Below are positions 36,748 through 38,594 of a stretch of 64,000 nucleotides of DNA, in pieces. The stretch's first letter is position 1. Each line of letters opens with the position of its first letter. The stretch is from Porphyromonas pogonae (GTDB lineage Bacteria > Bacteroidota > Bacteroidia > Bacteroidales > Porphyromonadaceae): the NCBI RefSeq assembly GCF_036320655.1, contig NZ_CP143258.1, positions 1,550,001-1,614,000 on the forward strand, read 5' to 3'. The position numbers and the translations under genes were made by a program. The notes under the pieces are model-generated. The model worked only from the letters and a program-made list of their open reading frames with translations. It was not told the origin of the DNA and ran no database searches.

Positions 36748-37704
36748 ATGAAAAACATTCTGATTATAGGCTCTACCGGACAGATCGGATCGGAGCTAAC
36801 TATGACGTTGAGAAAGCATTATCCGGAAGGACAAGTAGTAGCAGGTTATATACCGGGAGCCCCGCCTGTGGGAGAGTTGCTTGAGAGTGGACCATCCGAA
36901 GTGGTTGATATCACTGATGCTCAACAGATAGCGGATGTTGTGAAAAAGTACAAAATCGATACTATTTACAATCTTGCAGCTTTATTAAGCGCTGTTGCCG
37001 AGGCTAAGCCGCAGTTGGCATGGAAAATCGGGCTAGGTGGACTTTTCAATGTTTTGGAAGTTTCGCGTGAGCTTGGTTCTGCTGTGTTTACTCCCAGTTC
37101 TATCGGAGCTTTTGGTAATGACACCCCCAAAGATAAAACACCTCAAGATACAATCCAACGTCCCAAAACTATGTATGGTGTAACCAAGGTAGCAGGTGAA
37201 TTATTAGGAGATTATTACTTTAAACGCTTTGGTGTTGATACTCGTTCGGTGCGATTCCCCGGTCTTATCTCTAATGTAACACCTCCAGGAGGCGGTACCA
37301 CAGACTATGCCGTGGATATTTATTATGCAGCCGTCAAGGAAGGAAAGTTTGTATGTCCCATCAAAGAGGGTACTTATATGGATATGATGTATATGCCGGA
37401 CGCTTTGCGTGCTTGTATGGAACTTATGGAGGCTGATCCTTCAAGACTTGTTCATCGCAACTCCTTTAATATTGCGTCAATGAGCTTTGAACCTTCACAG
37501 ATAGCAGCAGCAGTCAGGAAATTGGTGCCAGGCTTTGAGATGACCTACGATGTTGATCCTTTGAGACAAAGCATTGCGGAATCATGGCCTAATTCATTGG
37601 ATGATACCTGTGCCCGTCAAGAATGGGACTGGACTCCTTCCTATGATCTTGACTCTATGAGTAAAGACATGATAGAGAAGTTGAAAATCCGTTTCGGAAA
37701 GTAA
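36748..37704 (+). CDS. L-threonine 3-dehydrogenase, SDR (epimerase-like) type
   Basis: This 318-aa NAD-dependent enzyme of the short-chain epimerase family oxidises L-threonine to 2-amino-3-ketobutyrate. GSTGQIG at 8-14 binds NAD, TPSSIGAFG and YGVTK give the catalytic Ser/Tyr/Lys, and PGGGTTDYAV is the sequence that separates threonine dehydrogenases from sugar epimerases. I use ATG 36748; the seven codons before it start with TTG and are not needed. A strong terminator follows at 37724. The RNA from the riboswitch at 38193 points toward the 3' end of this gene on the other strand. Confidence 0.9.
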   Translation: MKNILIIGSTGQIGSELTMTLRKHYPEGQVVAGYIPGAPPVGELLESGPSEVVDITDAQQIADVVKKYKIDTIYNLAALLSAVAEAKPQLAWKIGLGGLFNVLEVSRELGSAVFTPSSIGAFGNDTPKDKTPQDTIQRPKTMYGVTKVAGELLGDYYFKRFGVDTRSVRFPGLISNVTPPGGGTTDYAVDIYYAAVKEGKFVCPIKEGTYMDMMYMPDALRACMELMEADPSRLVHRNSFNIASMSFEPSQIAAAVRKLVPGFEMTYDVDPLRQSIAESWPNSLDDTCARQEWDWTPSYDLDSMSKDMIEKLKIRFGK

Positions 37705-37723
37705 GTATTTTCTGACAATCATA

Positions 37724-37764
37724 CAAAAGCGGGATGTCATTTCGATGACCATCCCGCTTTTTTA
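37724..37764. terminator. Strong terminator after the threonine dehydrogenase gene
   Basis: AAAAGCGGGATGTCAT and ATGACCATCCCGCTTTT form a long stem with one bulged C and a TTCG loop. T runs lie on both strands, so it can stop transcripts from either side, including RNA coming from the riboswitch on the minus strand. Confidence 0.88.
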
Positions 37765-38017
37765 ATAGTATTCCGAAAGTAACCTATACACCTAGAAAGG
37801 TTATGCAATAAGGATCCAAAAATAAAACCTCCGGAAATAAAATAACCTAATGTCGCTCATTACACCAAGTCTTTTATATCCCGAAGGCTTTAATTCACTA
37901 AATTATTATGGCAAATAATAATTTAAAAGTTCTCTCTGCGTGAGAACGGTTTCCTAAGTGGAATTTTTGACATGAAGTTTATTTCATTGTCATAGCTTTC
38001 CTCGAAGCTGCAGAAAA
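37765..38017 (-). other. Region downstream of the cobalamin riboswitch, without a gene
   Basis: On the minus strand, RNA leaving the aptamer reads this stretch. It contains a small hairpin at 37929-37947 (GTTCTC with GAGAAC, followed on minus by TTTTAAAT), which could be the expression platform terminator. Beyond it only tiny frames occur (16 codons ending at 37923, and one of 19 codons further down). There is no coding gene for a B12 transporter or enzyme between the aptamer and the end of the threonine dehydrogenase gene. Confidence 0.6.
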
Positions 38018-38193
38018 GTTTTGCAGGTCTTCTGGCTTTCAGCCTAATTATCCGGCACCTTCCCAAGAGTACAGAACTATCAGTGGTTAATCGCGGATCT
38101 TCAAACAGCTGATTACAGCAGCGGGACTGCTTAGGATTTACACCTAATTCCCTTTTAAGCATTTACACCATATAGTGCTATGCACAAAACCTA
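38018..38193 (-). ncRNA. Cobalamin (B12) riboswitch aptamer
   Basis: Read on the minus strand, all conserved blocks of the B12 riboswitch appear in the right order. They are TATGGTG, AAAGGGAA, AGGTGTAAATCC, GCAGTCCCGCTGCTGTAA, CCACTG, GGGAAGG, and the B12 box AAGCCAGAAGACCTGC at 38023-38039. The ends (GGTTTTG...TGCA and TGCAAAAC) can pair as P1. It lies just 3' of ridA on the same strand. I see no gene that it could control in cis. Whether it prefers adenosyl- or hydroxocobalamin is not clear. Confidence 0.95.
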
Positions 38194-38195
38194 TA

Positions 38196-38203
38196 CAAAG
38201 ATA
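38196..38203 (-). promoter_or_regulatory. Likely -7 element of a dedicated riboswitch promoter
   Basis: TATCTTTG on the minus strand ends three bases before the first paired base of the aptamer, so transcription would begin at or next to P1. A TTG is found 24 bases upstream within the end of ridA, slightly far but usable. It suggests the riboswitch RNA is made independently of ridA. Confidence 0.55.
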
Positions 38204-38213
38204 TATAAATAAT

Positions 38214-38594
38214 TTAGTCCTTTACAGCAATGACCTCAATTTCTACTAAACCATTTTTTGGTAATGTTTTTACAGCTACCGCAGAGCGTGCAGGAAAATC
38301 GCCTTCAAAATTCTTCTGATATACATCATTCATTGCTGTAAAATTTCCCATATCAGAAAGAAAGCATGTAGTTTTGATCACATGACTCATCTCAAAACCT
38401 GCCTCACTGAGCACTGCCCTAAGATTGCGAAATACTTGCTCTGTTTGGGCAGTAATATTATCGGATACAAAGTCACCTGTCTCTGGGTCTATTCCCAGTT
38501 GACCTGATGTATACAACGTGTTATTAACCTGAATAGCTTGGCTGTAAGGCCCTATAGCGGCGGGAGCCAATTGGGTTGAGATTACTTTTTTCAT
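38214..38594 (-). CDS. ridA: RidA family enamine/imine deaminase
   Basis: The 126-aa protein hydrolyses reactive enamines such as 2-aminoacrylate formed by PLP enzymes. YTSGQLGIDPETG and the substrate Arg in ARSAVAV are in place, with the EIEVIAVKD end typical of the family. It is the last gene of the dnaN-to-ridA row, 22 bases after rlmB. Functionally it fits with threonine and serine metabolism, and the threonine dehydrogenase gene is the next one along, on the opposite strand. Confidence 0.95.
   Translation of the reverse strand: MKKVISTQLAPAAIGPYSQAIQVNNTLYTSGQLGIDPETGDFVSDNITAQTEQVFRNLRAVLSEAGFEMSHVIKTTCFLSDMGNFTAMNDVYQKNFEGDFPARSAVAVKTLPKNGLVEIEVIAVKD

Follow-up and report, generated by a model that had tools for sequence, protein, structure and literature searches.

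The window analyzed here is a 64,000-nucleotide stretch of the Porphyromonas pogonae genome (contig NZ_CP143258.1, positions 1,550,001 to 1,614,000). Its minus strand carries a cobalamin (B12) riboswitch that is followed by no gene, lying between ridA (Ribonuc_L-PSP), the upstream neighbor on the same strand, which ends at 38214, and a gene on the other strand named threonine dehydrogenase, which ends at 37704 and to which Pfam gives only the NAD-dependent epimerase family. We propose, with a probability of about 0.82, that this orphan riboswitch controls a trans-acting antisense small RNA (sRNA) that would block the start of mutA, a gene of the B12-dependent methylmalonyl-CoA mutase, such that the enzyme would be made only with B12. 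The features of the element, in the order in which they would be transcribed, are as follows.

38196..38203, minus strand: promoter -7 element TATCTTTG of the Bacteroidota type TAnnTTTG, overlapping the start of the RF00174 match
38005..38204, minus strand: cobalamin riboswitch aptamer (RF00174), full length, 97.4 bits
37994..38009, minus strand: class-specific hairpin AGCUUCGAGGAAAGCU, immediately 3' of the aptamer
37929..37947, minus strand: small hairpin with GCAG in its loop; the GCAG is kept and the stem letters differ in G000, G008, G010, and G022 (genome handles given below; by eye)
37898..37926, minus strand: predicted seed hairpin with a 12-bp A-U stem and the loop UUGCC, in both the minimum-energy and the centroid fold
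37905..37915, minus strand: seed block 1 UUUGCCAUAAU, perfect complement of mutA -3..+8 (AUUAUGGCAAA, start codon included)
37894..37904, minus strand: seed block 2 AAUUUAGUGAA, perfect complement of the mutA leader -19..-9 (UUCACUAAAUU)
37827..37892, minus strand: intrinsic terminator, a long hairpin with the apical loop AAUGAGCG (AUGAGC at 37855-37860), then TTTTATTTTT

The covariance-model scan places the RF00174 match at 38204-38005 on the minus strand (97.4 bits, E 4.5e-23, model positions 1-189 of 189, gathering score 31.5). By score and consensus fold the element belongs to the cobalamin riboswitch class, and it is predicted to bind cobalamin. It is the highest-scoring of the eight cobalamin matches in the 2.92-Mb genome, one of which (27.4 bits) is below the cut-off. 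A first-pass annotation of the window had read a B12 aptamer here (38193-38018), a -7 element ahead of it and no coding gene 3' of it, and all three readings hold up: the -7 element is at 38203-38196, and the minus strand has no open reading frame (ORF) of ≥120 aa over the 2.3 kb 3' of the aptamer; a 79-aa ORF overlaps the aptamer itself.

The RNA that follows the aptamer is strongly structured (z = -5.3 relative to shuffles, none of 200 of which folded equally well). Judged from the terminator at 37892-37827, it should end there with a length of about 370 nt in this species; other species differ in length. The end of this terminator lies about 115 nt before the dehydrogenase stop codon. The first-pass annotation had the transcript pass a small hairpin with a short T run (37947 to 37922), a possible terminator, and then run on to a bidirectional terminator at 37724-37764 and into the 3' end of the dehydrogenase gene. 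The hairpin is present, but we rejected it as the end of the RNA, as only four T follow it and it is not kept as a terminator in relatives, and the much stronger terminator at 37892-37827 had been overlooked. Because of this strong terminator the RNA would stop short of both 37724-37764 and the dehydrogenase gene. An antisense transcript of that gene, which the first-pass annotation had offered as one possible product and which the convergent arrangement of the two would favor, is scarcely credible in consequence, given that the terminator comes before the dehydrogenase end at 37704 and that the dehydrogenase homologue and the orphan aptamer are at separate places in the other genomes compared. 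What stands behind the aptamer is therefore a terminated RNA of its own, non-coding as judged by eye from the lack of an ORF shared among the compared copies, with no gene attached, as is the case for the AspocR and Rli55 RNAs of Listeria discussed below. Its 3' part matches no Rfam family at threshold, with only sub-threshold matches in 37700-38100, and over 10 related loci only Cobalamin, tRNA, SRP, and group II intron were found above threshold.

The gene-less aptamer is a conserved class in the genus. Our sample comprised 26 Porphyromonas genomes, 23 of them with cobalamin riboswitches, and all 85 matches were taken with up to 3 kb downstream where the contig allowed (G000 is the present genome, G008 P. 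gulae, G010 P. macacae, G005 P. endodontalis, G009 P. loveana, G012 oral taxon 278, and G023 P. uenonis). Each riboswitch-bearing genome has exactly one orphan-class aptamer (23 of 23 genomes, 23 of the 85 aptamers), and directly 3' of it stands CTTCGAGG in 18 copies and CTACGAGG in five, neither of which is found after any of the 62 other aptamers. Gene distance alone does not define the class: for 12 of those 62 the first 400 nt are likewise free of ORFs of ≥120 aa, and an ORF is as near as 200-270 nt in some orphan-class copies. In most of the 18 CTTCGAGG copies (by eye) the order is the same: the CUUCGAGG hairpin comes first, then a variable segment, then (U)UGCC(A/G)UA or a similar sequence, then UUUAGUG or whatever replaces it in a given clade, and lastly the terminator, the arms of which vary so highly in length that they are unsuited to alignment. 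Folding predicts a hairpin about the homologous GCC for some of the other species, not for all. Of the 23 orphan-class copies, 21 have the sequence TAnnTTTG, which we take to be the Bacteroidota promoter -7 consensus, between -40 and +25 relative to the aptamer start, and so do 51 of the genus's 62 other aptamers; for the remaining two orphan-class copies (G005 and G017) such a box was read by eye further upstream. Neither a B12 riboswitch match nor mutA was found in G003 and G007 (the latter 88% complete), and in G020 (54% complete) mutase fragments occur without a riboswitch match.

The surroundings of the orphan copies vary. The genes after seven of the 23 copies, one per clade, are all different (a radical SAM protein, an Asp-Al exchanger, methionyl-tRNA synthetase, a phosphorylase, an M20 peptidase, an M3 peptidase, and a GH20 enzyme), and ridA is the upstream neighbor in G000, G010, and G022 only. 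The first-pass annotation had considered that a B12-transport gene once stood here and was deleted, which relatives retaining such a gene at this locus would reveal; G010 and G022, in which the adjacency of ridA and the riboswitch is kept, carry the same non-coding RNA there (the G022 contig stops 241 bases after the aptamer). A dead aptamer left by such a loss might be expected from the four transport-like genes (by eye) that follow the seven other cobalamin matches of the present genome, yet the gene-less state, the conservation of which the first-pass annotation had left to be compared in relatives, is the rule in all 23 riboswitch-bearing genomes. The class-specific hairpin is kept with it in all 23, the seed and terminator are kept in most, and they recur in the Tannerellaceae; this conservation already contradicts the reading, to which we give next to no chance. 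As a separate observation, ~1 kb without a large ORF follows the orphan aptamer in G001, G021, G023, G024, and G025 (loci L125 and L165), and then a strong terminator at about +1026 (+1174 in G023).

The conserved segment UUUGCC(A/G)UAAUAAU is the complement of a AUUAUUAUGGCAAA translation start, its variable purine standing opposite the U of AUG. Complementarity to an AUG-GCA-AA start, with mutA as the candidate, was written down before mutA was searched for. The mutA gene of the present genome (TIGR00642, 791 bits, cut-off 617) starts at C1:1435175, 153 kb from the orphan RNA (~C1:1588190-1587820), and the predicted target is thus, as in the Listeria systems, part of B12-dependent metabolism. 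Two perfect 11-bp blocks would pair, at mutA -3..+8 and -19..-9, separated by a bulge of five leader bases. A TAnnTTTG box lies 56 nt ahead of the mutA start, for which reason the pairing site would be in a short leader, and a mutB-like ORF begins 15 nt after the first base of the mutA stop codon. On a whole-genome scale the seed complement is not distinctive by itself: a 16-mer allowing up to three mismatches gave 117 matches relative to 77 for the reversed control, one of the three-mismatch matches (1435167-1435182) being the mutA start. The two-mismatch matches (a groEL-like start and small ORFs) were dropped as targets, and the seed test became meaningful once confined to start regions.

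For this, mutA was compared with the start regions of other ORFs in sampled parts of its own genome (331 starts from 464 kb of 2.9 Mb in G000). By complementarity mutA is first of 332 in G000, of 109 in G006, of 113 in G012, and of 91 in G010, first of 103 and second of 109 in two Parabacteroides genomes, and third of 93 in G004. By duplex energy it is first in G006, G012, and G010, first and second in the two Parabacteroides, second in G000, and sixth of 93 in G004; the G000 start that beats it reads MANKQKNTQEEDV... and is taken for a transposase. The seeds of G000, G012, and Parabacteroides had been noticed through conservation before mutA was known.

The RNA is also found outside of the genus. 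A scan of contigs for the aptamer end plus GCTWCGAGG gave, among the 80 matches listed, at least 23 with riboswitch context, comprising at least 10 in or near Porphyromonas, at least nine in Parabacteroides/Tannerellaceae, and at least four gene-linked riboswitches of other families. With a tenth Parabacteroides copy that is cut by the locus end, at least ten Parabacteroides/Tannerellaceae genomes have the same RNA, and the six of these ten loci examined with Rfam are all cobalamin riboswitches. The module is nearly identical among them ("UUUUGCCAUAAUAAUUAG" and a terminator with GCGGGAUGAGCUCCGC or close to it), and in its terminator five of 17 predicted pairs are changed on both sides, with some other pairs broken in one to three sequences. 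A strict module pattern, which misses variants including the copy of the present genome itself, matched 14 of 393 Bacteroidales genomes, and only G139 and G322, both in one family, were real by sequence.

The complement over the mutA start is retained in 17 of the 23 Porphyromonas genomes, where ≥8 consecutive nt at the homologous position are perfectly complementary, and in the nine Tannerellaceae that have a readable leader. Moreover, the two sides change together in several clades: GTGATTAGA faces TCTAATCAC in G010 and G022, GTATTGTGA faces TCACAATAC and CTTTTGCC faces GGCAAAAG in G006 and G008, TTAGTGGATT faces AATCCACTAA in G004, TTTTGTTGCC faces GGCAACAAAA in G005 and G017, and TGGTTTGCC faces GGCAAACCA in G019. 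To put a number on this we crossed the sRNAs and leaders of 10 clade representatives of 33 genomes, a matrix that replaced a hard-to-read one of 23 genomes with cruder sRNA pieces. Cognate pairs averaged 36.8 versus 31.6 for non-cognate pairs (permutation p = 0.00095 and 0.0011 in two runs), and with the leader alone 25.7 versus 21.7 (p = 0.0035 and 0.0027 in two runs), where the p values are approximate because the clades are related. Overall, then, the sRNA and the mutA leader co-vary. In addition, a Tannerellaceae metagenome-assembled genome contig of 5,346 bases (L278, which contains L427) has mutA, mutB, and the orphan riboswitch RNA in that order on one strand, the RNA gene beginning about 90 nt after the mutB-like ORF and the contig being cut just ahead of the mutA ATG, so that here the RNA gene follows its proposed target operon.

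Several points weigh against the proposed control of mutA. Seed pairing is unconvincing in six of the 23 Porphyromonas genomes, namely G015 and the five members of the G001 clade; what that clade shares is no more than a 10-nt complement, CAACACACAC, set in a much longer leader. In G014 and G018 a single 9-nt block pairs, and the cognate pair of G014 scores under several non-cognate pairs. In the cross matrix only two of the 10 clades have the cognate pair as the top score of its row, and two of 10 as the top score of its column. Since most clades share CACTAAA and ATGGCAA, the co-variation is an average effect, and it weakens when clades are dropped (p 0.008 without G006, 0.02 without G006 and G010, and 0.03 for the leader alone without G006). 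The ranks by duplex energy in G000 and G004 fall short of first place, and ranking is weaker still with the whole 3' part as the query, with which the controls scoring at least as high as mutA number five of 331 in G000, two of 108 in G006, three of 112 in G012, none of 90 in G010, and 16 of 92 in G004. For the remaining species, the seeds were assigned by homology with the mutA leaders already in view. Between the aptamer and the seed we saw no conserved intrinsic terminator, and the candidates for the off-switch are because of this a Rho-dependent stop, altered access to the seed, or altered stability. Such an RNA did not turn up at the 10 aptamers (one of them truncated at a contig edge) of five genomes from other Bacteroidales families, and we therefore make no claim for Prevotella or Bacteroides; nor was the RNA found in the one Prevotellaceae genome examined. 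Finally, no role was found for the AUGAGC loop of the terminator; a GCTCAT lies within 80-100 nt of the mutA or mutB start in only three of 33 genomes.

In an alternative reading, the conserved, B12-controlled sRNA is real and mutA is just one of its targets or not the main one. The comparison took in only the 331 other starts of the present genome, other ATGGCAA starts score nearly as high as mutA, and the conserved AUGAGC loop has no matching site near mutA or mutB in 30 of the 33 genomes. Against this, mutA ranks at or close to the top of the starts in seven genomes, the sRNA shows overall co-variation with the leader, and the RNA gene follows mutB in one genome, and we regard a lesser role of mutA as rather unlikely.

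The AUGAGC loop invites another explanation, in which the RNA acts by binding a protein through its terminator, as Rli55 does with EutV. The loop is present in 10 of the 18 Porphyromonas CTTCGAGG copies, with one similar chance match among the 62 other aptamers, and, among the matches listed, in all nine Tannerellaceae loci that were found without use of the loop, while the stem changes; in the present genome it is closed by UGU/ACA and not UGG/CCA, a compensatory change. However, other Porphyromonas clades with the seed have no such loop or a changed one, the loop has no known protein partner, and it departs from the A-x-x-G rule for the hexaloops of ANTAR RNAs. Protein binding is in our estimation quite improbable as the mode of action.

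Base pairing with mutA thus being the preferred reading, we put forward the following hypothetical mechanism. Transcription would begin just ahead of the aptamer and, when B12 is scarce, would proceed to the terminator at 37892-37827 to give the RNA of ~370 nt. The UUGCC loop of the seed hairpin would contact the GGCAA of the mutA start and the pairing would extend to UUUAGUG, resulting in a two-block duplex over the start codon, from -19 to +8 of the mutA mRNA, by which initiation would be blocked for mutA and translation also for the following mutB. Binding of cobalamin to the aptamer would cut off production of the functional RNA and the mutase would be made, and an OFF riboswitch would thereby become an ON control of a B12-dependent enzyme. 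Of this scheme, the sequence establishes the aptamer, the conserved RNA with its terminator, and a complementarity to mutA that co-varies overall, and it is from these that we infer transcription, dependence on B12, the step at which B12 would act, and repression. The short B12-controlled RNA in the manner of Rli55 and AspocR that the first-pass annotation had suggested is borne out as far as a conserved RNA in the genus and in a second family and a probable target are concerned, and it is its control by B12 that we infer.

The same logic may extend to a further riboswitch. A B12 riboswitch ahead of a 4-hydroxybutyryl-CoA dehydratase gene has been reported in Tannerella (PMC7160235), and another B12 riboswitch of the present genome precedes a gene read by eye as this enzyme. 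In the absence of B12 the mutase would be off and a B12-independent route from succinyl-CoA would be on, and both arrangements would fit one logic. We consider it probable that the RNA represents a new sRNA family of Porphyromonas and Tannerellaceae, in which an aptamer and a start-codon antisense element co-evolved with the mutA leader, and through which B12 would set the fate of succinyl-CoA, to propionate with B12 and by the riboswitch-controlled 4-hydroxybutyryl-CoA dehydratase route without it. It may be noted that the riboswitch ahead of the dehydratase-like gene is the second of two cobalamin riboswitches on the same strand, 1.65 kb apart (C1:409109-409323 and 407256-407459, minus strand, locus L132), with no ORF of ≥120 aa between the pair on that strand, and the upstream one resembles another orphan, of a different class.

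Among known systems, the S-adenosylmethionine (SAM) riboswitches SreA and SreB of Listeria act on prfA, the terminated riboswitch itself being the regulator; the present RNA resembles them as a riboswitch transcript acting in trans and differs in having a dedicated RNA 3' of the aptamer. EutX of Enterococcus is grouped with Rli55. The logic of a B12 riboswitch controlling a regulatory RNA is already known from AspocR and Rli55 of Listeria, and it is the RNA, the phylum, the target, and the distant bipartite pairing that differ. AspocR (Rli39) of Listeria monocytogenes is an antisense RNA behind a B12 riboswitch that is reported to act in trans, probably on translation, and as proposed here it keeps B12-dependent metabolism low without B12 (PMC8079631). 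AspocR is encoded opposite its target pocR, a regulator, whereas the RNA in P. pogonae lies far from its putative target, which is the gene of the B12 enzyme itself, and its pairing would be short, bipartite, and over the start codon, in a different phylum. Rli55, a trans-acting RNA of ~450 nt that is likewise under a B12 riboswitch (PMC8079631), holds the EutV protein through ANTAR elements, while the present evidence points to base pairing with an mRNA. In Bacteroidales, GibS and other Bacteroides sRNAs are also trans-encoded and base-pairing, and the account of them drawn on here contains no mention of riboswitch control, cobalamin, or B12 (PMC7366714). In Xylanibacter ruminicola, cobalamin raises both the RNA and the protein of mutA and mutB and of no other gene of the propionate pathway, by a mechanism that the authors describe as unknown and apparently not directly riboswitch-based (PMC11575231). 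Our searches of open PubMed Central papers, a scope outside of which subscription papers and most preprints fall, yielded no description of the present RNA. If the proposal is correct, this would be a trans-acting sRNA under a B12 riboswitch with a named, co-evolving target in Bacteroidota, none having been found for the phylum in those searches. It would offer a testable mechanism for a cobalamin-raised mutase of the Xylanibacter kind in other families of the order, and "orphan" riboswitches of annotation could be sensors of regulatory RNAs.

Two further cobalamin riboswitch arrangements were observed. The weak eighth match of the present genome (27.4 bits; C1:1801254-1801451, minus strand, locus L136) lies about 320 nt ahead of a 379-aa ORF with a signal-peptide-like start. 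In G006, G008, G009, and the G001 clade (loci L187, L190, L194, and L208) a cobalamin riboswitch stands ahead of a gene read by eye as an ATP-cone ribonucleotide reductase.
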